Positions 33,216-54,251 of a stretch of DNA of 54,251 bases are shown piece by piece. Source of the stretch: an uncultured Clostridia bacterium (GTDB lineage: Bacteria > Bacillota > Clostridia > Christensenellales > Borkfalkiaceae); the NCBI GenBank assembly GCA_947629485.1, contig CANRDX010000008.1:1-54251 (forward strand), read 5' to 3'. The stretch's first letter is position 1. Each line of letters opens with the position of its first letter. The notes below the pieces were generated by a model. It saw only the letters and a list, made by a program, of their open reading frames with translations, did no database searches and had not been told where the DNA came from. Both the position numbers and the translations under genes were made by a program.

Positions 33216-33246
33216 AAACGCCGCCCGCGCAAACGCGCGGGCGGCG
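33216..33246 (-). terminator. Terminator of the phage-like module
   Basis: A perfect 12-bp GC stem (33219-33230 with 33235-33246) with a 4-base loop is followed by three T residues on the minus strand, 25 bases after the last gene of the module. Confidence 0.7.
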
Positions 33247-33271: not shown

Positions 33272-33763
33272 TCAACAATATGAGGCGAGCAGATCGTACA
33301 GCGTCTGATAGAACTCTCCGAGATAGGTGCGAGCGAGCGAATCCATCGCATACGCCTGCAAGCGGGCGTTCGGCTCCGAGACCGCCTCCATGTAGTAGTT
33401 CCGCACGACGAGAAAACGCTGGGAATAGGAGAGATTGTAGTTGGGATTTTCGGGATAGCGGTACGGCCCGTTGTCGTTCCCCTCCGTTCCCAGACTCTCG
33501 TACGCGAGCTGGTGCAGAAGATCCTCCCGCACGATCTCCACGTCCGCTTCCGCCTGCGCGCGGATGCGCGCCTCCTCGCGCTCTTTCACGGAGGAGCGGG
33601 CGTTGTCGTTGCGCAGCAGGAGAAATAAAAGTTCCTCGATCTCCGAATCCGCCTTCGCGAGAATGTCGTTCTTCTTCCCCTGCGCCACGCGCACCATCGA
33701 GAGCTGGACGGCGGAGAGATCGGAATAGGCGGGATCGGAAAGGTCGATGATGTCGATCGTCAT
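33272..33763 (-). CDS. Unknown protein at the end of the phage module, 163 aa
   Basis: A mostly helical, charged protein; residues about 25-85 are rich in Ala, Glu and Arg and likely form a coiled coil. The C-terminal half is rich in Tyr and Asn (PYRYPENPNYNLSYSQRF, then YYMEAVSEPNA). No family was recognised. The ATG at 33763 overlaps the stop of the preceding gene (ATGA), so it belongs to the module. By position it could be a neck, plug or tail-needle-like protein, or a host-adapted addition. Confidence 0.7.
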   Translation of the reverse strand: MTIDIIDLSDPAYSDLSAVQLSMVRVAQGKKNDILAKADSEIEELLFLLLRNDNARSSVKEREEARIRAQAEADVEIVREDLLHQLAYESLGTEGNDNGPYRYPENPNYNLSYSQRFLVVRNYYMEAVSEPNARLQAYAMDSLARTYLGEFYQTLYDLLASYC

Positions 33764-35022
33764 ACGAGCGCCTCCCGCAGCCATAGTTCAACGGCATGGA
33801 TCGTGCATGTTGGCTGCAACGCGTGCAGACAGAGCGTGACGGTGCGCCCGCGCAGCGTGTGCAAAAGTTTTCCGTATCCGCCCCCTTGAAGGGCAACCTC
33901 TTCGCCGCCCTCCTCGGTGGCGATCTCCGCCCTGAACGCGCCCTCGCCGCGCACGCGGATCCCCTCGATACGCACGTCCTTTTTTTCGCCGCAGGCGAGC
34001 GTGAAGGAAAGGGAACCCTCCGCCGCGCTCCCGAATCCCCTGCCCGCGAGCAGGCGAAGGCGGGCCTTGCTCCGATACCAGATCCCGCTCTCACCTCCGC
34101 CAATCGCGTCCGCCTCCGCGTCGTCGGTGTAGAAGGTATCCGCCGCGGGATCGTACACGCGGATCCGCGTCTTGCCGTCCGTATCTTCGGCGCGGAAGAA
34201 ATATCTTCCGCCATAAGAAGCGCTCTGCGAGGCGAAGCCGATCCCGAGAGAGGGCTGCGCGAGCGCGATCTTCCCGCCGCGGCACACGCAAAGCCCCCGC
34301 TCCGTGAGGAAGACGACGCTGTCGCCGCATTTTTGCACGCTGCCCGCGAGGATCGTTCCGCAATCGAAGTCCTGCCGCTCGAAACGGTAGTTCAGATCGC
34401 GCGCGTCGGCGGTAAGTTTTAGGATCTCGCGCGTGCGGAACACCATGATCGCGCCGTCGAAGGGAACGAGCGCGAGGATCTCTCCGCCCCCCTCTTCGAG
34501 TTCGATTTTGCCCGCGTTCTTCCCTTCGAGAGAGAAGGTCTGGGGCGAGAGCGGCTCGGAGTAGCGGATCATGCACCCGTTTGCGATGAAGAGCCGCTCG
34601 CGGTGCACGGCGCCGCACGTTCCGCCCGTCGGTTCGAGTTTGGTGAGAAAGGAGCCGTCGAAGCGGAAGAGGGAGGTCTTGCTCATGATGAAAAGGCTGT
34701 GTCCCCCCTCGTTGTCGTGATAGGGCACGGCGCAGAGAATGGGGTTGCCGCGGTCGCCGAAGAGGGTAGCGGTGAGAAGTTCGACGAAGCGCCCGTTCTG
34801 CAAGAAGCCGTAGACGCCCCCGCAAAATTCCGCGAGCATCGTGACGTTCTCGTTCACCGAGGCGCGGTCGGCAGTGTCGTCCGCCGCCGTAAATATCCCG
34901 TCCTCCTCCCGCATCTGCAAGAGGCGCGACGAGAGGACGGCAGACTTATCCTTCAACGTTTTGGGCGTGATGAGAAGGACGTCGCGGCGCACGGAAGGCG
35001 TAACGAAAGTTTTTTCGATCAT
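33760..35022 (-). CDS. Phage structural protein, probable beta-propeller-like head-completion protein, 420 aa
   Basis: The sequence is beta-rich throughout with recurrent blade-like units (GHSLFIMSKTSLFRFDGSF, ERLFIANGCMIRYSEPL, GAIMVFRTREILKLTA, DSVVFLTERGLCVCRGG). A propeller in this position, after portal, capsid and connector, recalls the DNA-stabilisation plug protein gp10 of P22-like phages; this is structural analogy, not a sequence match. The start at 35022 is chosen over an upstream GTG because CGGAGGTG lies just before it and the ATG overlaps the upstream stop by four bases. Confidence 0.65.
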   Translation of the reverse strand: MIEKTFVTPSVRRDVLLITPKTLKDKSAVLSSRLLQMREEDGIFTAADDTADRASVNENVTMLAEFCGGVYGFLQNGRFVELLTATLFGDRGNPILCAVPYHDNEGGHSLFIMSKTSLFRFDGSFLTKLEPTGGTCGAVHRERLFIANGCMIRYSEPLSPQTFSLEGKNAGKIELEEGGGEILALVPFDGAIMVFRTREILKLTADARDLNYRFERQDFDCGTILAGSVQKCGDSVVFLTERGLCVCRGGKIALAQPSLGIGFASQSASYGGRYFFRAEDTDGKTRIRVYDPAADTFYTDDAEADAIGGGESGIWYRSKARLRLLAGRGFGSAAEGSLSFTLACGEKKDVRIEGIRVRGEGAFRAEIATEEGGEEVALQGGGYGKLLHTLRGRTVTLCLHALQPTCTIHAVELWLREALV

Positions 35023-35576
35023 GCCCACCTCCGTGCGCGCAGAGCGAGCCTGTGCCGTACGACGGCCGCCGCCCTGAGCGCTTCGCGATACTTTTTATCG
35101 AATACCGAAGCCTCCGAAAACAGCCCGCGCGCGAGCATAAATTCCGCCGCCACGCCCAAAGAGAGCAGCCGCGCCGAGATCTTCCCCTCGAAATCCGAGG
35201 CGTCGCCGAGCTTTTTCGCCACGGGCGCGAAGGCATACTCCACGATCGCTTCCGAGACCGCTTCGCGAAGCCCGATCGAATCGGTGAGGAGATCAAATCG
35301 GATACCCATGCCCGAAACAGACGTTACGGAAACGATGTTGATCGGGGTATGGGAGAGGCTTGCGTAGGCGATTTCGGAATTGTGCACGGGGAGGCGCTCC
35401 TTTGCCGTTAAGGGGAAGTAATCGAGCGCGACTTCGTTTTCGATCAGATTGAAACAGCGCACCAAAAGCTCCGCCGTCTCCTCCTTCGCCCCTCCGCTTT
35501 CGATCTCCTTTGCAAGCTCGCTCATCCCCGCCATCTCCGCAGCAGCGGAGAGCACTTCCTTCACTTTGATCGGCAT
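35019..35576 (-). CDS. Probable phage head-tail connector/adaptor protein, 185 aa
   Basis: A mainly helical protein (MPIKVKEVLSAAAEMAGM..., VRCFNLIENEVALDYFPL) of the size and position of connector proteins (gp4/gp6 type) encoded right after the major capsid gene. The start is set by a strong GAGGAGGTG six bases before ATG 35576. It lies 14 bases after the capsid gene and overlaps the following gene by four bases. No catalytic motif. Confidence 0.65.
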   Translation of the reverse strand: MPIKVKEVLSAAAEMAGMSELAKEIESGGAKEETAELLVRCFNLIENEVALDYFPLTAKERLPVHNSEIAYASLSHTPINIVSVTSVSGMGIRFDLLTDSIGLREAVSEAIVEYAFAPVAKKLGDASDFEGKISARLLSLGVAAEFMLARGLFSEASVFDKKYREALRAAAVVRHRLALRARRWA

Positions 35577-35590
35577 GGCGCACCTCCTCT

Positions 35591-36754
35591 TTAAGCCTCG
35601 TCGATCCCCGAGAGCATCGCCTGCCCCGCGGGGCGATAGCAGAGAAGTTCGGCGTATTTGACGAGGGTCGCCGTGTACATCGCTCTTCCCGGCGTCTGTT
35701 TGAGCACCTTTCCGTCCTCGCCTTCCAGCCACTGCCAATCGCAGAGCTGATGAAGCCCGAAGTCGTCGGTGTTGAGAAGGTACATCGTATTCTTGGGGCA
35801 GAAGCGATCCGCGACGACGGGAATGCCGTTATACGAGAGGGCGCGGAAGCCGCCTTCAAGCTCCATAGGTTCGAGCTTGCGGTAGGCGGCAAGCGCGTTC
35901 GCAAAGGCGCGGCGCACTCCCCACGAGCAGACGATGAAGTTGATCTTGCTGCCCGAGTGCTCCTCCACTTCGTCGATCGCCTCCTGCAACTTGTTCTCCG
36001 TGAGCGCGCCCACGTCCTTCTTGATGACGGGTTTGAGCCATGCGTTCTCCTCGCGGCTCACGCCGTAGAGGGTGGGCGAATCGCCGAAGATCGCGCCCAA
36101 TCCCGTGATTTCCAGCCCCTTCGAGCGCTGCAACACGATGGTATAGCCCGCGGGCGTGGAGAGGGTGCTCCCCGAGAGGAGGACGGTATTCGCCTCCCTA
36201 TCTACGGAGAGAATGGTGCGGCCCGAGCCCATCGAGCTGCCCTGCGCGTTGTAGATATCCACGACCATGCCCTCGGCGAGGTTGCGCGTTGAGTCCACGG
36301 TGAAGAGCTGGCCGTTTTCGCCGTCCACGCTCTTGATCGTCGCGAGAAGCCCGCTCCCGTCGCCGAAGAGCATTCTTCCGAAGTTGAAGGCGGAGCTTTT
36401 CACAAGCCCGTCCATCTCCTCGTTGAGCAGATCGACGAAGGCGCCCTCCCCGTTCTTGGAGGCGCGGATCGCCTTATCCGAGATCTCGATCACGCCGTAA
36501 AGATTTTTGAGCGTGACGACGAACTGCGCGTACTGGTTGCCGCCCGCGGCGGGAAGCGAACCCGATTCCGTGCCCGCGCCCACGCCGCCGTTGACGCCGT
36601 AGCGCACCGCCTTTCTCACATCCTTGCCCCAGACGTCCGAGGTGGTCTGCCTGATCTTCGCAAGCAGCGGGTTGACGCCCTTATTGAGCTGATCGCTCAC
36701 GGCGCCGAGATAGTAAGATTTGAGTACATTGTCTGCTGTTTCGCATGTTACCAT
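35591..36754 (-). CDS. Phage major capsid protein, 387 aa
   Basis: The start (TCETADNVLKSYYLGAVSDQLN) and the central region (YAQFVVTLKNLYGVIEISDKAIRASK, FNFGRMLFGDGSG, GLGAIFGDSPTLYG) fit HK97-fold coat proteins of clostridial phages that tackle an 'L-T-A/GxIxISDxxI' core. The C-terminal part (FRALSYNGIPVVADRFCPKNTMYLLNT) is characteristic of such coat proteins. It has a very good ribosome site (AAAGGAG). Complete by length. Confidence 0.85.
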   Translation of the reverse strand: MVTCETADNVLKSYYLGAVSDQLNKGVNPLLAKIRQTTSDVWGKDVRKAVRYGVNGGVGAGTESGSLPAAGGNQYAQFVVTLKNLYGVIEISDKAIRASKNGEGAFVDLLNEEMDGLVKSSAFNFGRMLFGDGSGLLATIKSVDGENGQLFTVDSTRNLAEGMVVDIYNAQGSSMGSGRTILSVDREANTVLLSGSTLSTPAGYTIVLQRSKGLEITGLGAIFGDSPTLYGVSREENAWLKPVIKKDVGALTENKLQEAIDEVEEHSGSKINFIVCSWGVRRAFANALAAYRKLEPMELEGGFRALSYNGIPVVADRFCPKNTMYLLNTDDFGLHQLCDWQWLEGEDGKVLKQTPGRAMYTATLVKYAELLCYRPAGQAMLSGIDEA

Positions 36755-36782
36755 AAAAATTTCTCCTTTCTGTTTTCGGCGG

Positions 36783-37148
36783 TCAGGTGCGGCTCTTTAA
36801 GTAGCCCAGCGCGAGTTCGCCCGCTTCCCGAATGGAATTGGGGCGTTTTACGGGCGCCGCCACGCCCGTTCCCGCGCTCGTCATGAGGGGAACGCCTCTC
36901 GGCGGCAGCAGGGCGCCGCCTTGCGCCTCCCCTTCTTCGCTGTCCGTCCGCGGAAGCTCTCCCTGCGCGGACGCTGCATGCGCTGTGCCCGAAATTTGGG
37001 CGACTTGCTCTTCGAGTGCTTTGAGCCGTTGACTGCGGCGGGTAAATTCCGACTCCAACTCCCCGTACGCATGCACGAGGGCATCGACGCTCTTGAATTT
37101 CCCCGCGAGAAGTTCCGCGGGATCCCCGCCCATGTTTTCCTCTTTCAT
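36783..37148 (-). CDS. Phage scaffolding-like protein, 121 aa
   Basis: A short protein with an N-terminal AELLAGKFKSVDALVHAY segment, then a coiled coil (about 28-50), then a Ser/Gly/Pro-rich low-complexity middle and a short helix at the end. This composition, and the position between portal and capsid genes, fit a scaffolding protein. Shorter than most scaffolds, so it may be reduced. Start supported by AAGGAG. Confidence 0.65.
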   Translation of the reverse strand: MKEENMGGDPAELLAGKFKSVDALVHAYGELESEFTRRSQRLKALEEQVAQISGTAHAASAQGELPRTDSEEGEAQGGALLPPRGVPLMTSAGTGVAAPVKRPNSIREAGELALGYLKSRT

Positions 37149-37151
37149 CTC

Positions 37152-38993
37152 TTATTCTCCTTTGCGGCGGTGGGACGCGAGGTGGCGCATGATCCTCTCC
37201 TTTGTCGCCGCGTCGTTTTCCCCGCCCGAGAGCAGGGCGCGAAGATGTTCGGTGCGGTGAAGCGCGTGATCGTCGTATTCGTCCGCCTCTACATCTTCCT
37301 GCGCCAACAGCACGTTCTCCCGCTCCGCCTTCACGATGTGCAGGCGGGAGATATCGCGCGCGTTTTCAAACGAACCGTACCCGAGCGCGTCGAGGATGCG
37401 GTGTCTCACGTCGTCTGAAAGTTTGTCTCCGCTTTGAAGAAGCCCGAGCGAGAAGAGGGTCGTGATCTCCTCCTTGATTTGTTCGGGCGTGCGCTCATAT
37501 CCCGTCTCGAATTCGATATCGTCCGCCGAGATATCGCTCGCGTCGAAATAATGAAGCTCGGTGTTCCCCCCCAGTCCCGTCATTTTGAGCAGCCGTTTGG
37601 AGGCGGCGAACTGCTTGTAGAGGTGCAAGATCTGCTTGCCCGCCTCCTTGACCGCCCGCTCCACGCTCTCGACCGCCTGATGCATGCGGTTGGTATCCTG
37701 ATCGATGAGGAGTTGCAGCCCGACTGCGCTCGTGACGTTGGTGGGATTGGCGGAATTGCGCGAGATCTGGCTCATTCCTGAGACGAGAATGAACTCGTTC
37801 GCGATGCGCTCTTCCTCCTCCTGAAATTCTGCGGGGAGACTGCCGCAATCGAGGAAGGCGGGCGGCGCGGAGCCTTGACGGTAGACGAGCACTTTCCCGG
37901 GATACAGCCCGTCCTCCGCAAGATCTTCCGCGTCCACCGAGCCGTCCTCCACCGCCACAACGCCCGCCGTGAGCCGATTGAGAAATTCGTGCTTGCGGTT
38001 CCTCACGGCGTTGTATGCGCGCTGCAACGGGATCATGCGGTCCACGACGGACGTCCCGAAGAAGGCGCCCGGAAGAGGAATGCACACCTGCCTGATGAAG
38101 GGCAGCGTGCGCTCGCCGCGGTCGCCGTTCTTGTAGGGAAGCGGACCTTCAAAGAGAAGCTCGCCCCCCGCCACGATCTCCAACCGCCCCTCGGGGTGAT
38201 CCCCGTCCGGGCGGGTGTACCGTTCAATCAAGATCTCCCTGTTCTCGAAGGAGGGCGTCATGTTCCCGTCCGCAGGGCGTTTCCAGTTGCTCGCGGAGCT
38301 GTACGGCACCAGCGAGAACTCGCCGATGGTGCGCCCCGCAAGCTCGACGCCGAACTTCTCCCTGATCTCGGAGACGGGCACGGCTTTTGCGTGAATGACG
38401 CTTTTCACCCCACCCATGTCCGAGGCAGTGAGGTCATCGGGATAGATTTCGAAGGGCGACAGCGCGACGATATTCACGTCCCCTTCCCGCAGCGTGTGCC
38501 CGCGTTCGTCCGTTCCGATCACGTTGCCGTCGTCGAAATTCCACACCACCTTATAGAACGCCGTCCCGCAGACTTCCGACCAAAGCGTCGCGCTCGTGAT
38601 CACGCTGTCCAGATCGACGCGGTTTTTCACCGCCTTGATGATATTGGAAGCGAGCCGCGCCGTTTTGAGGTCGGCGTCGGAATCGGAGAACGCGCGCACT
38701 TCGAGCGAGGGGCGCACTTTGGCAAGCCGCGCCATACGCGTATCCACCGTGGGCGCGATGTGGTTGAAGCACCGCCGCGACTGCCAATAGAATTCGGCGC
38801 TCTCCTCCTCGATCTCCCCCGCGGGCGTGATGTCGCAGAATTGATCCCCGCTCAAAAAGTTCATGTTGAGCTGCCAGCCCCGTTCGAGCTGGCGGCGCGC
38901 CTTCTGCCGTTCGAGAAAATCCGCCTGCACCTCTTCGGCGAGCGCCCTTCTTCGGGCTGCCTCCATCCGCTCTTTCAATTCTTGTTCCTTCAT
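37152..38993 (-). CDS. Phage portal protein, 613 aa
   Basis: The N-terminal region (GWQLNMNFLSGDQFCDI, then RRCFNHIAPTVDTRMARLAKVRPSLEVR) and the IPLQRAYNAVRNRKHEFLNRL segment fit portal proteins of the P22-like group. The central NPTNVTSAVGLQLLIDQDTNRM portion is also typical. It forms the dodecameric gate through which terminase packs DNA. Length is in the family range. Its ATG overlaps the upstream gene stop by four bases, and it has a GGAGG site. No frameshift seen. Confidence 0.85.
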   Translation of the reverse strand: MKEQELKERMEAARRRALAEEVQADFLERQKARRQLERGWQLNMNFLSGDQFCDITPAGEIEEESAEFYWQSRRCFNHIAPTVDTRMARLAKVRPSLEVRAFSDSDADLKTARLASNIIKAVKNRVDLDSVITSATLWSEVCGTAFYKVVWNFDDGNVIGTDERGHTLREGDVNIVALSPFEIYPDDLTASDMGGVKSVIHAKAVPVSEIREKFGVELAGRTIGEFSLVPYSSASNWKRPADGNMTPSFENREILIERYTRPDGDHPEGRLEIVAGGELLFEGPLPYKNGDRGERTLPFIRQVCIPLPGAFFGTSVVDRMIPLQRAYNAVRNRKHEFLNRLTAGVVAVEDGSVDAEDLAEDGLYPGKVLVYRQGSAPPAFLDCGSLPAEFQEEEERIANEFILVSGMSQISRNSANPTNVTSAVGLQLLIDQDTNRMHQAVESVERAVKEAGKQILHLYKQFAASKRLLKMTGLGGNTELHYFDASDISADDIEFETGYERTPEQIKEEITTLFSLGLLQSGDKLSDDVRHRILDALGYGSFENARDISRLHIVKAERENVLLAQEDVEADEYDDHALHRTEHLRALLSGGENDAATKERIMRHLASHRRKGE

Positions 38994-39262
38994 GTTTCCT
39001 CCGTATCGTTTTCTTGTCCGAGCGCCTTCAACTCCCCGATGAGCCGTTGGCGCTCGCGTTCGAGTTCTTCATCGGAAAGCGCGGCATAGTCCCTCTCCTC
39101 CAAGAGAAGTTTCACCGCTTTGAGATCGGGCGGGACGTCCTTCCTCGTCTCCTTGCGCTTGACGAGTTTCAGTTCGCCCTCCGACGCCGCGAATTCCTCG
39201 GTCACTTCTTCGAGCGAGTAGCCGAGCGCGACTTTGAGGATCGCCTCCCTTACCTTATCCAT
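38990..39262 (-). CDS. Small phage protein, possibly terminase small-subunit-like, 90 aa
   Basis: The N-terminus (REAILKVALGYSLEEVTEEF) followed by KLVKRKETRKDVPPDLKAVKLLLEE resembles the C-terminal parts of small terminase subunits, which often read 'VPPD..A..FLLK'. The last third is a charged helix. It sits three bases after the terminase large-subunit gene, although small subunits usually come before. No separate helix-turn-helix DNA-binding domain is obvious, so the call is tentative. Confidence 0.55.
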   Translation of the reverse strand: MDKVREAILKVALGYSLEEVTEEFAASEGELKLVKRKETRKDVPPDLKAVKLLLEERDYAALSDEELERERQRLIGELKALGQENDTEET

Positions 39263-39265
39263 CGT

Positions 39266-40690
39266 TCACCTCTTTCGCCTGAGACGGCGGATCCTGCGTT
39301 CCTTATCGAGTTCCAACTCCGTCTTTTCCTGCACGGGGCGGGCGGGGCGCGGGCAGGACATTAAATAGTACCGAAGTTCGTCCATCGCGTGGTCGTCCCT
39401 CTTGACGGGCGCCTCGCCGCTTCCCCAAAAGTAGCCCTTGAATTCGCGGATCATGTTCACGCAGTTTTTGAAAATGTAGAGATCGGGCAGCCCGTTCGTG
39501 CGGGAGAGATACCGCTTCACCTGCGCGATCCCGCCGAACACATCCTTGTTGACGCGCGGATTGACGAGGATATCCCGCTCGTAGAAAAGCTCCGAGACGC
39601 TGCGCGAGGAAGCGAGCGTTTTCGCCTCCGCCGCCGAGTCGATGAGCGCGGAGAGCCTGCCGCGGCTGTCGCGCTTCCAACCGATCTTGTCCGAAATGGC
39701 GTGAATGGCGTCGGCGTGCCCGTCTACGTCCAGCCCCGCGGCGTAGTGCTCGGCGACGACGTAGACGTTTCCGTCGAAGTCCACGGCGTACCAGTGCGCC
39801 GAGAGAGGGTTTTTCAGCCCGGGGTCGATCGCGATCATATCCTGCCATGCGGCGGGCACGTCGAAGGGTTCGATCACATGCACGCTCTCGTCGAATTCGG
39901 GATAGACAAGCCCCTCCCGCGTGCAGAATTTTCCGTATCGGCGCGCCTGTTTTGTCGTCTCGTCGAGGGTGTTTTCCAGCAGCGCGATCTCCTTCTTGGG
40001 GAGAAAGGGGTTGTCCGCCCACTCCATGAACTCGTACCAGATCTGGGGGTCGCCGCGGGGGTTGAGATAGATCTCCTCATAGACGAAGGTCAAGCCTTTG
40101 AGGGGGGTCATGGTGCCGAAGATATCCCCCTCTCTGTCGGCGACGCGCATGCGGCACTCCTCATAGATATCCTTCGGCGGCTCCTCGTCGAACCATACGA
40201 AGTCGAGCGAACTGCCCTGAAAGCGCTCCCTGCCCTGATCGCAGCTCTTGAACCCGATCGTGGAGATCCCGCCGAACACGTTGCGGACGCGGATGAGGTC
40301 GATCACGCCCGCCGCGGGGCAATCCTTTCTTCCGCTCGTCATCACGATGTCCTCGATCCAATCGGGGCGCAGATAGTGCAGGATCTTGCTCTGTGCGACG
40401 TCGCGCTGGACCTGCGCCGTGAGCGAGACCACCCAGCCCGAGACGTTTTTTTTGTTCTTGCGGTACGGGTGCGTCCCGCGGGCAAGCCACACCGCCTCGA
40501 CCGCGCCGCACTCCGTCTTCCCCGAGCGGTTGCCGCCGAATACCCAGCGGTTGCGCTTTTTCGAGCGGTGAAAGGCAAGCTGTTTTTTGTGTTTGACCTT
40601 TCCCGCGTTGTATCTCGCGAGGTGATCGTGCTCGGCGCGCTTTTTTTGCTCCCGCTCGATGGCGGCGATCTTTTGCAGTATTTCGTTCAT
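39266..40690 (-). CDS. Phage terminase large subunit, 474 aa
   Basis: The ATPase has Walker A GGNRSGKT (52-59) and Walker B VWFDEEPP (about 180). The C-terminal RNase H-like nuclease is visible as IAIDPGLKNPLSAHWYAVD and a later SALIDSAAEAK, giving the acidic cluster that cuts DNA. Both domains look intact, so packaging activity is plausible. It drives DNA into the capsid through the portal. It is the first structural gene of the module. No close ribosome site precedes its ATG (the nearest GGG is about 15 bases away), so the start is less certain. Confidence 0.9.
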   Translation of the reverse strand: MNEILQKIAAIEREQKKRAEHDHLARYNAGKVKHKKQLAFHRSKKRNRWVFGGNRSGKTECGAVEAVWLARGTHPYRKNKKNVSGWVVSLTAQVQRDVAQSKILHYLRPDWIEDIVMTSGRKDCPAAGVIDLIRVRNVFGGISTIGFKSCDQGRERFQGSSLDFVWFDEEPPKDIYEECRMRVADREGDIFGTMTPLKGLTFVYEEIYLNPRGDPQIWYEFMEWADNPFLPKKEIALLENTLDETTKQARRYGKFCTREGLVYPEFDESVHVIEPFDVPAAWQDMIAIDPGLKNPLSAHWYAVDFDGNVYVVAEHYAAGLDVDGHADAIHAISDKIGWKRDSRGRLSALIDSAAEAKTLASSRSVSELFYERDILVNPRVNKDVFGGIAQVKRYLSRTNGLPDLYIFKNCVNMIREFKGYFWGSGEAPVKRDDHAMDELRYYLMSCPRPARPVQEKTELELDKERRIRRLRRKR

Positions 40691-40730
40691 AATCGCTAAA
40701 ATTTTCCCTTTCCCGCACCGAAAATTGCGC

Positions 40731-40736
40731 TACTAT
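40731..40736 (+). promoter_or_regulatory. -10-like box directly before the secreted SH3-like protein gene
   Basis: TACTAT overlaps the first in-frame ATG (40735) and lies seven bases before the second (40744). This suggests a leaderless transcript starting at the second ATG. The -35 region is poor. Confidence 0.4.
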
Positions 40737-40743
40737 GGCGCGT

Positions 40744-41454
40744 ATGAAACGTTTTCTTCCGGCAATCATCCTCGCGATCGCTCTGGTCGCGTCCGCCGTC
40801 CCGCTCTCCGCGGCGCCCCTTTCCGCTGCCGCCGCCGATCCGCTGCGCTATGCCGTCGCAGCCGATCCCGACGTATGGTTCTACGAGAGCGAGACGGAGG
40901 AGGGCCGCCTCTTCCTCATCCCCGAGTCGTACTACGTCCGCATCCTTCTCGAAGGCGATACATACACCGCCGTGGAATATCTCGTCAACGATCCGCCCTA
41001 TCGCAAACTCATGGGTTACTGCCGCACCGACGCGCTCACCTTTGTGGATTTCATCCCCGCGCGCCCCTTCCTCCGCAAGCAGATCACCGTCTCCTACACC
41101 ATTCCCGGCGGCGAGACGGCCTTCGAGGACGTGTTCGGCAGCCTCGACCGCGCCTTCGTGTACTACGGCATGCGCTATGAGTACGGGCAGGCATACTGCT
41201 ATGTTCTCGCCGACGGGCAATTCGGCTACATCCCCCTCGACAAGGAGCCTGAATTCGAACGCAACGACGACTATTTGAGCATGACCGAGGCACCCGTGTC
41301 GGGCGAGGGCGAGAGCGGCTCGCAGGGGCTGACCCCCGTGCAGATCGTCGTCATCTGCCTCGCATGCGCGGCGATGGCGGGCATTGCGATCTTTGTGTTG
41401 CGTGCAAAACGGCGCGCCCCCATACCGCCCGACTCCGACCGTTCCGACTTCTGA
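40744..41454 (+). CDS. Secreted, membrane-anchored SH3-like protein, 236 aa
   Basis: A signal peptide (KRFLPAIILAIALVASAVPLS) is followed by an SH3-like region (YAVAADPDVWFYES...YYVRILLE...YRKLMGYCRTDAL, about 35-100), then a second extracytoplasmic part and a C-terminal membrane segment (about 195-218) with an Arg/Lys-rich cytoplasmic tail. The layout is shared with the 830-aa protein encoded at 42165-44657. It is transcribed opposite to the phage module and divergent from terminase (53 bases). Its 3' end overlaps the convergent regulator ORF by 184 bases. Choosing the ATG at 40744 gives a normal signal peptide. The role is unknown; cell-envelope function is likely. Confidence 0.75.
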   Translation: MKRFLPAIILAIALVASAVPLSAAPLSAAAADPLRYAVAADPDVWFYESETEEGRLFLIPESYYVRILLEGDTYTAVEYLVNDPPYRKLMGYCRTDALTFVDFIPARPFLRKQITVSYTIPGGETAFEDVFGSLDRAFVYYGMRYEYGQAYCYVLADGQFGYIPLDKEPEFERNDDYLSMTEAPVSGEGESGSQGLTPVQIVVICLACAAMAGIAIFVLRAKRRAPIPPDSDRSDF

Positions 41455-41951
41455 AACCGCACGCCCGCGACGGTACGCTTCGCGGTGATGCGGTTCTCCT
41501 CTCCCGCCATGATCGCCTGCAAGATGCGCATAAAGGGCGCATATTCGCCGAACGCTTCAAAAAACGCTTTGTCCGTCCATCCGCCCGCGGTGAGCAGGCT
41601 CCCCACCCGCTGCAAGAGCGCGCTCTGACGGCGAAAATAACTGCGCTCCGAATACGGAAGGTCGGCGCCGAAGCGCGCAAGTTCCCTCCTCCTGCGGAAA
41701 TATTTGTATTCGAGCAAAAACCGCTCCTCCTCGGAGAGAGAAGAAAGGATCACGCCGAGCCGCGCGGAAAGCGATTCGAGCCGCTCCGCCAAAACGATCT
41801 CCTCCGCGACCTCTAAGGCGGCGTCGAAGGCGGAAGCGTAGCTGCGGAAGGAAAGCACAGCCTTATTGGACGCGGCGACGCGGGAGGCGTCGGCAAGACC
41901 GCAAAGGTAAGGATAGGCATATAAAATGACCTTTACATACTGTTTTTTCAT
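41271..41951 (-). CDS. ArpU/sigma-like phage late-gene regulator, 226 aa
   Basis: The N-terminal part (KKQYVKVILYAYPYL) is followed by SLSEEERFLLEYKYFRR and YSERSYFRRQSALLQRVG, the sigma-region-4-like pattern of ArpU/RinA-type activators of phage late operons. The conserved part ends near residue 165; the last 60 residues are the antisense of the secreted-protein gene and look like read-through after loss of the original stop. The start (MKKQYVKV) has an AGGT about ten bases upstream. It lies upstream of the terminase gene in the same direction, with a LexA box at its promoter. Probable role: switching on the capsid genes after DNA damage. Confidence 0.7.
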   Translation of the reverse strand: MKKQYVKVILYAYPYLCGLADASRVAASNKAVLSFRSYASAFDAALEVAEEIVLAERLESLSARLGVILSSLSEEERFLLEYKYFRRRRELARFGADLPYSERSYFRRQSALLQRVGSLLTAGGWTDKAFFEAFGEYAPFMRILQAIMAGEENRITAKRTVAGVRFQKSERSESGGMGARRFARNTKIAMPAIAAHARQMTTICTGVSPCEPLSPSPDTGASVMLK

Positions 41952-42030
41952 GGATTTCGACCTACAAACAACGTTTTTTGCGCGAAATGCGCGGACAAAC
42001 TTGCAAAAGCGGGGAAGGGTGGGACATTCA

Positions 42031-42057
42031 CAAACGTTTGTTCGTAATTCCATTCTA
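42031..42057 (-). promoter_or_regulatory. LexA (SOS) box and -10 of the phage regulator
   Basis: On the minus strand CGAACAAACGTTTG (42031-42044) is a full match to the Gram-positive LexA consensus CGAACRNRYGTTYG. It lies just downstream of a -10-like TAGAAT (42052-42057), where bound LexA would block transcription, and 80 bases before the regulator start codon. Confidence 0.75.
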
Positions 42058-52922: not shown

Positions 52923-54251
52923 TTATGGGATATGTTTTATTCTTTCTCTAAACTCTTCAAGACTTTCTGGATTGGAAAACTTATAATAAATATGAATCTC
53001 GCGTTCACCGTTTTCCTGCTTTTCTCCGACAGTAATAAAATCAATGAGTTGCAAACATGCTTCTCGCGTCAAAGTTTCGCACGCGCCATACTTTTTCAGA
53101 TTAGCAATATATGCGTCGGCTTCCTCCTCCTCTTTCCCTACTGCGGCAAGCCGCGCTTCCAACTCGCTAATCCGTTGCAATACGCTCTCGCGCTCGGCTT
53201 GATACGCTCTGCAAAGGCTTTCGCATATCTCCTCCGGCATCCCTTTCAGAACTTTTTCTTCAAAGGCAGATTGAACCAACTTGTTTAATTCGGTCAGCCT
53301 TTTTTGATCTGCTCTTAATTGCTTTTCATCGGAATATCTGCTCTGTTCGTTTACCCTTGAGCGTTCCCTCAAAAACTCTTCTTTTACTTTCTTTTCGTCC
53401 AACGACACGTTATGCAACATGGAACGAATATCGGATATAACAATGTTCTCCAATACCTTCTCCCCGATGTGATGGGAAGTGCAATATTTGTTGCCGTAAT
53501 CCTTATAAGTTCGGCAAACAAACCCATATCCGAGCCTCTCGCGTTGCAACTTGAACTTATTTCCGCAATCGGGACAAACAACAAATCCAGATAGAAGATG
53601 CGTCTGCTGTTTCCCATCAATCTTTCCGCGAGAGACCGAAAGATTGACTGTCTGCACCTTCTCCCATACCTCGCGACTTATAATCGGCTCATGGGCGTTC
53701 TCTTTTACGATCCACTCATCTTCGGGAAGATTGACAATCTTATGGTTCTTATATGAAACCCTCGTTGTCTTATGTTGCGTCATAGTCCCGAGATAAGTTT
53801 GATCCGTCAAAATTTGCATCACAGTCCCTGCAGACCAATACGGCGAACATTTCCTCGTTGATTTTGTGCCGTCAAGTTTTGTGAAGTAATGCGTTGGATT
53901 GGGGATCCCTTCATCCGTCAGAATGCGAGAAATGCGACGAACAGAAATACCTTCTATCCGCAACGCAAAGATCCGCCGAATGATTGCCGCGGCTGGCTCA
54001 TCAATCACAGCAGTACGATTTTCATCGCTTCCCGCCTTATACCCATAAGGATAATTCCAATTCGTGTACTTGCCTGCTCGCTGGCTCGCCTCAAAAACCG
54101 CTCGTATCTTCTTACTCGTATTCGCGGCGTGCCACTCGTTGAATACGTTCATGATCGGCATCATATCCATCGCCGTCGATGTTCTGTCTGCCGTATCCAC
54201 ATTATCGGAGAGAGCGATAAAGCGTATTCCATATGCGGGGAAGATGTAGTC
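52905..54251 (-). mobile_element. Start of an integrated element carrying a large serine recombinase
   Basis: The recombinase gene ends at a junction with the collagen-like gene (52905-52925, around TGTTCAACAGG). Serine integrases usually sit at one end of their element next to the attachment site. The AT-richer composition begins here. The other end is outside the window, so element type (prophage, transposon or skin-like element) is unknown. Confidence 0.6.
52923..54251 (-). CDS. Large serine recombinase (C-terminal 442 aa, 5' end outside window)
   Basis: The frame is open to the window edge, where it reads YGIRFIALSDNVDTADRTST, the end of a resolvase catalytic domain. Then follow the recombinase domain (about 30-140 of this fragment, YPYGYKAGSDENR and GISVRRISRILTDEGIPNP), a zinc ribbon (CPDCGNKF ... 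CRTYKDYGNKYCTSHHI) and a long coiled coil (about 260-380). This is the plan of phage and Tn4451-like serine integrases. The catalytic serine lies outside the window. It is AT-richer than the neighbours. It lies at the junction with the broken collagen-like gene and should excise or integrate the element. Confidence 0.9.
   Translation of the reverse strand, partial: DYIFPAYGIRFIALSDNVDTADRTSTAMDMMPIMNVFNEWHAANTSKKIRAVFEASQRAGKYTNWNYPYGYKAGSDENRTAVIDEPAAAIIRRIFALRIEGISVRRISRILTDEGIPNPTHYFTKLDGTKSTRKCSPYWSAGTVMQILTDQTYLGTMTQHKTTRVSYKNHKIVNLPEDEWIVKENAHEPIISREVWEKVQTVNLSVSRGKIDGKQQTHLLSGFVVCPDCGNKFKLQRERLGYGFVCRTYKDYGNKYCTSHHIGEKVLENIVISDIRSMLHNVSLDEKKVKEEFLRERSRVNEQSRYSDEKQLRADQKRLTELNKLVQSAFEEKVLKGMPEEICESLCRAYQAERESVLQRISELEARLAAVGKEEEEADAYIANLKKYGACETLTREACLQLIDFITVGEKQENGEREIHIYYKFSNPESLEEFRERIKHIP

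Follow-up and report, generated by a model that had tools for sequence, protein, structure and literature searches.

Within a 54,251-nucleotide stretch of DNA from an uncultured Clostridia bacterium of the family Borkfalkiaceae (contig CANRDX010000008.1 of assembly GCA_947629485.1; hereafter, the window), the source genome of which is 1.55 Mb and 98% complete, lies a phage-derived DNA-packaging module (positions 33272–42044) that is kept intact and is inherited with the chromosome in its genus and in many related families of mostly gut Clostridia. Its genes and their evolution give good support to the view that it encodes a DNA-packaging particle owned by the host and probably under SOS control, and gene transfer is the best-fitting candidate for its function: this is probably a domesticated podovirus head and short-tail module that works as a gene transfer agent (GTA)-like particle. 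As far as can be judged from sequence, an ordinary dead prophage can be excluded.

The module and its inheritance

The module is encoded on the minus strand, apart from a single plus-strand gene, and its open reading frames (ORFs) are intact, as judged from the ORFs of the window and their matches to Pfam and PHROG profiles:

42031–42044, minus strand: LexA/DinR-type box, CGAACAAACGTTTG, upstream of the ArpU-like gene
41271–41951, minus strand: ArpU-like regulator, 226 residues (phrog_248, E = 0.0011, a weak match; probable start, the frame being open from 42128)
40735–41454, plus strand, opposite to that of TerL: protein with an apparent signal peptide and one transmembrane segment (read by eye)
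39266–40690, minus strand: large terminase, TerL (Pfam PF03237, Terminase_6N, E = 4.7e-13; phrog_2)
38990–39262, minus strand: short TerS-like protein, 90 residues (phrog_309, E = 4.7e-6)
37152–38993, minus strand: P22-type portal (PF16510, P22_portal, E = 4.4e-16; phrog_156, E = 5e-32)
36783–37148, minus strand: scaffold-like protein, from position and conservation (a sub-threshold Pfam row alone; no PHROG match)
35591–36754, minus strand: major capsid protein (phrog_14242, E = 1.2e-66; PF17236, SU10_MCP, E = 4e-4, under the Pfam cut-off)
35019–35576, minus strand: adaptor-like protein, 185 residues, from its place between the capsid gene and the hub
33760–35028, minus strand: short-tail nozzle/hub of beta-propeller type, 422 residues (predicted fold)
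33272–33784, minus strand: 170-residue protein (g170), probably a shortened DUF7934-type (c39) distal protein (hhalign; PF25588 in relatives)
33220–33245, minus strand: 11-bp GC-rich hairpin without a T-run, after the last gene; absent from the terminator-scan list

Profile matches uphold the original prediction of intact terminase, portal, scaffold, capsid and neck-like genes, the scaffold and the adaptor being placed by position; its layout, in which the terminase followed the ArpU-like gene, requires amendment, as the conserved plus-strand gene sits between the two. The host-like composition that it described is also seen: the G+C content (GC) of the module is 0.611, compared with 0.567 and 0.592 in the flanks, and that of third codon positions is 0.70–0.83, compared with 0.75–0.84 in eight nearby host genes.

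TerL was searched for, with E values up to 0.001, in 151 genomes (91 from the same genus, and 60 from 32 other families of the order), and 130 of these gave a match. Within the genus, 88 of the 91 genomes match (G062 by a 37-residue end piece alone), the three without a match being 66–75% complete, and TerL is found in every one of the 52 genomes that are at least 90% complete (one has 7% contamination, and contig ends truncate a few of the matches). In the other families, strong matches, at 56–66% identity, occur in 28 of 60 genomes and 16 of 32 families; the remainder, at 25–32% identity, resemble ordinary phage terminases.

The eight genes from TerL to g170 follow one another in identical order in 19 of 19 same-genus loci, which were picked for long contigs (L146, from the same set, is of another family); all 19 also have the plus-strand gene in place, and 13 have SpoVAC nearby. 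Homologues of the plus-strand gene, for which the Pfam and PHROG profile scans gave no family match, lie on the strand opposite to that of TerL in 35 of 41 loci, and beside it where mapped. Across 20 loci from 19 genomes of other families the core order is mostly kept, albeit some contigs end early; L116 holds just TerL and its two upstream genes, and TerS precedes TerL in L112 and L128. Extra genes recur in these loci, namely, those for a 114-residue protein, c18 (17 of 20), a zinc-ribbon-like protein, c33 (11), the DUF7934 protein, c39 (10), and a holin-like protein, c57 (7), two of which were tested and both match BhlA. For 53 of 110 loci (L001–L030 and L031–L110 are partly from the same genomes) there is enough flank for a count of the whole module; at 60% profile coverage, and with a match to c39 counted for g170, all ten genes are present in 44. 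The nine incomplete loci have a low-coverage or absent scaffold (five), g170 (three) or ArpU (two), L109 being without both g170 and ArpU.

In f28, a family with small genomes, the module is split: the ArpU-like gene, the plus-strand gene and TerL lie apart from the capsid block, which is ~45 kb away in G140. The genes are open at both loci, and the module is united in a sister genus; such splitting without decay is a typical mark of host-owned systems. The probable signal-peptide, single-transmembrane protein encoded on the other strand keeps its place by the terminase from family to family, and does so even when the module is divided.

A tree of TerL, portal and capsid protein was compared with that of one host marker, rpoB, for 29 of 30 genomes (G054 was dropped for its truncated rpoB, one genome is without a capsid sequence, and G122 is represented by one of its two copies, L126). 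The two trees have 14 of 26 splits in common, whereas shuffled labels gave 0.18 on average and 3 at most, and there is no conflict among their 10 and 11 starred splits, respectively. Patristic distances correlate with r = 0.90 overall, 0.48 in the genus (7 of 2000 permutations were as high) and 0.62 among the other families (0 of 2000). In 12 close pairs, the ratio of nonsynonymous to synonymous substitution rates (dN/dS) is 0.06–0.17 for TerL, 0–0.21 for TerS, 0.04–0.20 for the portal (8 pairs), 0.16–0.50 for the capsid protein and 0.33–0.55 for the hub (4 pairs; there are fewer for the last genes because contigs end). These 12 comprise 11 of the 15 closest pairs together with that of the window and L031; in the four left out (L042/L043, L035/L090, L039/L060 and L039/L047), the TerL ratio is ~0.08–0.27. 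Over 266 pairs chosen by TerL dS, most of which have dS near 1 and many of which are near saturation, TerL has a median of 0.19; that of the hub, which is hard to align, is 0.75, from 125 usable pairs. TerL, TerS and the portal are the most constrained genes, and are under purifying selection. Moreover, the Walker A lysine, the Walker B DE pair and the nuclease aspartates of TerL, as we take these residues to be, are invariant among all 41 sequences, and there is slight variation at adjacent motif positions (S56 is kept in 37 and T59 in 40 of the 41). Since the module is present in all near-complete genomes of the genus, and its order is conserved, its tree congruent with that of the host, its dN/dS low and its TerL residues conserved, we conclude, as the original prediction had suggested, that it has been kept by selection and is not in decay; the comparison of gene order and dN/dS in relatives that had been proposed as a check bears this out.

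At L046 (9750–11850), compared with the otherwise near-identical L047, TerL matches at 96%, the portal at 97% and the capsid protein at 54%, with sharp divergence from the scaffold onward; either the capsid block may have been replaced or the assembly may be chimeric. General exchange of capsid blocks in the genus was considered and rejected: the conflict is small, at 3 of 27 and 2 of 23 starred splits, compared with 1 of 17 and 1 of 28 for a TerL-versus-portal control.

Probable regulation, packaging and short tail

Control of the module by LexA appears likely. The original prediction had placed a LexA box before an ArpU-like regulator, and both are found: the regulator, albeit with a weak match in the window, is present in 140 of 151 loci according to its family profile, and CGAACAAACGTTTG, which lies ~80 bp upstream of the probable ArpU start at 41951, is the single match of the pattern CRAACAWAYGTTYG across the 1.55 Mb genome. 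All 27 testable genus loci have, upstream of ArpU, a box agreeing at no fewer than 9 of 10 positions, compared with 2.6% of shuffles, and 62 of 75 loci from genome contigs have one too; these loci share kinship and are not independent trials. In the same genome, AAAACAAATGTTTG precedes the start of lexA by 57 bp and is closely followed by a TATACT element; the 7 genus lexA genes examined all have such a core, 57–68 bp before the start. The predicted damage control is supported because the box recurs and matches in type that of the host lexA gene itself. As a marker of a wider regulon, the box was rejected: the wider pattern CGAACNNNNGTTYG has 14 matches in the genome, compared with 15 for a reversed control (palindromes being counted on both strands).

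The module was originally described as tailless; it is predicted instead to encode a minimal short tail. The predicted fold of the 422-residue protein (predicted local distance difference test score, 91.8) resembles the hub or nozzle of a podovirus short tail over almost its full length, and g170 aligns with the DUF7934-type c39 proteins with P = 2e-4, compared with 0.013–0.62 for five control pairs. Searches of the PDB by sequence gave no credible match for the 185-residue adaptor-like protein, one weak row for the portal (8jov, E = 0.021) and weak, mixed matches for the capsid protein (7f38, E = 0.0043, yet a rhodanese scored better, at 0.00056). Integrase, replication, tail and lysis genes had all been called absent, and this stands in part: no replication or lysis gene was recognized among the 30 window ORFs scanned, and no ejection proteins, fibres or integrase in the module, but the short-tail hub is present and a serine recombinase (52923–54200), the sole recombinase among the scanned ORFs, is encoded ~11 kb from the module. 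The latter gene, at the contig end, has a low GC of 0.45 and probably belongs to an unrelated mobile element. The terminator that had been assigned to the module does not hold up, as the 11-bp GC stem has no T-run; a scan that requires such a run found 12 terminator-like sites in the region, compared with 11.7 in shuffles.

On this basis, DNA damage would inactivate LexA, the ArpU-like gene behind the LexA-type box would be expressed, and its product would activate the late operon. Scaffold, capsid protein and portal would assemble into heads, which the TerL motor would fill with host DNA; packaging may be independent of sequence because TerS is short and matches just the C-terminal part of its family, aligning solely with positions 197–246 of 319 in phrog_309. 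The adaptor, hub and distal protein would then close the head and form the minimal short tail, and release would probably be by lysis in those relatives that keep the BhlA holin in the operon.

A GTA-like role, which the original prediction had put forward, remains the best fit, and it has a published analogue in FpGTA of Faecalibacterium. A domesticated particle that packs DNA and does not deliver it, serving as a PBSX-like killer or in another extracellular role, is unlikely, but is the most substantial of the alternatives: the hub and adaptor evolve fast, as the hub ratios above illustrate and as parts that face competitors may, and SOS-type control fits PBSX too, whereas the genes under the strongest constraint are those for TerL, TerS and the portal, and no contractile-tail or toxin gene was recognized among the scanned window ORFs. 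Also in favour of such a particle, DNA injection by FpGTA is itself left open in the cited parts of its description (PMC12946183). The original prediction had further offered a helper-dependent particle, and this gained no support: a satellite-like capsid provider, packing another element or phage, could explain why fibre and lysis genes were not found in the genus, but it is very improbable given the SpoVAC gene nearby in 13 of 19 loci, the congruence with the host tree, the lack of an integrase beside the module and the presence of its own motor.

Phage relatives and insertions in the capsid gene

Catalogued phages are distant from the module: the capsid protein reaches at most 31% identity, with 13 of 50,697 records matching, and TerL at most 32% in the best 20 of 1,197 records; the best IMG/VR matches mostly resemble fragments of the same kind of module. 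In G122, a complete genome from the order, there are two copies, L126 and L125 (apparently the same as L323/L390), and one copy appears to lie in a region of 34.8 kb classed as viral by IMG/VR (L323); reading by eye, this region has large tail-type genes and one resembling dinB. In the family f76, which is outside the order, four genomes (G209, G261, G307 and G349) have a scaffold–capsid–c18 block, then two unlabelled genes that match an adaptor and a hub in size. The block adjoins a serC-like gene (by eye) and other host genes, and a lone TerL is found elsewhere in three of these genomes (G209, G261 and G349); the loci concerned are L203, L204, L207, L208, L380, L381 and L382. This may be another split system, and looks like a second, independent or more distant domestication.

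A number of points weigh against a GTA-like particle under SOS control. Particles, packaged DNA and delivery are all predicted from the genes. Prophage-like regions of other Clostridia, mostly outside the order, also contain related modules (L202, L205, L212–L215 and L378); L202 shows matches to tail fibres, and L378 encodes a Lin1244-type replication protein. A close TerL is absent from half of the families sampled. In a sister genus (G338) TerL is broken, and the matches to it in G084 and G057 each contain a single stop. No lysis or fibre locus that would account for release and attachment was found in this genus: no BhlA holin was detected in 20 family genomes (other lysis families were not searched), and the tail protein phrog_5302 was found in 0 of 20, where its control was also silent and other fibre families were not searched. 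As for regulation, a box of at least 9 of 10 positions is present in just 3 of 13 loci from other families, and one of at least 8 of 10 in 8 of 13, compared with 19% of shuffles; none above 8 of 10 was found at recA in 12 loci. There is no box in G140, G430 and G533, and G359 has a box yet no match to a LexA domain; G140 lacks the box and the LexA-domain match alike, and the covariation of box and LexA is imperfect.

The original prediction had turned to relatives for the same genes inside full prophages and for stop codons in sisters, and these conditions apply in part: related modules do sit in prophage-like regions, mostly outside the order (L202, L205 and L378), as, apparently, does one G122 copy, and the damage amounts to the broken TerL and the two single stops. 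These prophage-located relatives and damaged TerL copies fit a phage ancestor plus occasional loss. Taken with the absence of replication and integrase genes beside the module, they might also be invoked for a decaying or recently acquired prophage remnant, an explanation that is scarcely credible in view of the presence of the module in every near-complete genus genome, its co-diversification with hosts over many families, its low dN/dS and its recurrent box. In G338, a member of the same family, a cytosine-5 methylase and a ThsB-like (Thoeris-like) TIR cassette lie between the truncated TerL and the adaptor and hub (L379, 8606–18583).

At one conserved site near the 3′ end of the gene, the capsid reading frame leaves the family pattern in three distinct insertions (G532/L316, G533/L308 and G534/L196), the last of which recurs with identical sequence in a second contig, L200, to give four contigs in total. 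The site comes after C-x-x-P-x-G and, in most intact copies, before Q-A or Q-G. The insert in G532 encodes serine recombinases, a phage tail protein and a cytosine methylase, that in G533 a primase-helicase and a LexA-like protein, and that in G534 a type I methylase; a fourth case, L318, stops at the contig edge, and L312 was grouped with L196 and L200 among the insertion loci. In G532, the C-terminal part of the capsid protein, together with c18, adaptor, hub and c39, reappears ~58 kb on, directly behind two large serine recombinases (L316, 5400–5600, with L388, 13850–14240); a script found no common repeat of more than 10 bases between the two ends. Because the capsid remainder follows the recombinases in G532, and because the insertions hit one place, phages seem to use the capsid gene of the module as an attachment site. 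We tentatively put forward, as a possibility that is rather less likely than not, that much of the order has inherited an ancient transfer particle under SOS control, which serine-recombinase prophages exploit by inserting at the capsid site. Lysogeny there would cut the host's DNA-transfer device, perhaps reversibly and to the benefit of the phage, and the insertions suggest a conflict between prophages and such particles. Some capsid proteins have a C-terminal extension (L118, 13731–15107, and the tails of the major capsid proteins of L120 and L388); that of L118 matches the Listeria–Bacteroides repeat, PF09479, and is perhaps a surface decoration.

Comparison with known systems

The module resembles the podoviruses P22, SU10 and GP4 in its portal family, the fold of its hub and the order portal–scaffold–coat–adaptor–hub, which is that of P22; unlike in these phages, ejection proteins, fibres, integrase and replication genes are not recognized here. 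PBSX of Bacillus subtilis is SOS-linked and has a contractile tail and, like the module, is chromosomal in a Gram-positive host. It is described, in the cited parts of the source, as packing random host DNA of 13 kb and as killing rather than transferring (PMC7667829). A search of the literature by titles and abstract openings, the scope of which excluded most subscription papers and all preprints, found no description of this locus.

With RcGTA and its kin the module has in common that it is a domesticated caudoviricete module, vertically inherited and without self-replication. It differs in having short-tail parts of P22/SU10 type and in belonging to another bacterial phylum, and alphaproteobacterial GTAs have regulators other than those seen here. 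The tail of RcGTA measures 49 nm, and the source of this value, in the parts cited, gives six features of a GTA: descent from caudoviricetes, packaging of mostly random host DNA, full endogenization, often at several loci, failure to package its own genome whole, vertical inheritance and delivery (PMC9662315). Three of the six are seen here, namely, caudoviricete-derived proteins, full endogenization, from genome examination (a recurrent chromosomal place in the genus and the two-locus split in f28), and a tree congruent with that of the host (rpoB); the split loci of f28 point towards a fourth, that the module would not package its own genome whole.

The closest parallel is FpGTA. According to the cited parts of its description, its genes for TerS, TerL, portal, scaffold and capsid protein lie in an operon of 10.5 kb, its TerS is reported to be without a DNA-binding domain, and it has no replication genes; its heads, of ~40 nm, contain 8.4–8.9 kb of random host DNA, and in some strains a second locus encodes tail or baseplate, fibre, receptor-binding, holin and endolysin proteins (PMC12946183). 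The module is likewise of podovirus type and encodes the same five proteins (the scaffold by position); unlike FpGTA, the particles of which have been seen experimentally, it is known from genes alone, and the search for BhlA and phrog_5302 found no second locus with fibre and lysis genes. A LexA-type box is present here, whereas LexA has no occurrence in the main text on FpGTA (PMC12946183). If the module does encode a GTA, the kind extends to a large part of this order of Clostridia, with host co-diversification over many families, and it becomes testable whether gut commensals keep DNA-exchange particles under DNA-damage control. It would also offer a candidate cluster for the GTA-like packaging reported for Christensenellaceae (3 of 25 events), to which the cited parts of the same study assign no gene cluster (PMC12946183); the candidacy is plausible, the likeness to FpGTA being one of gene content.

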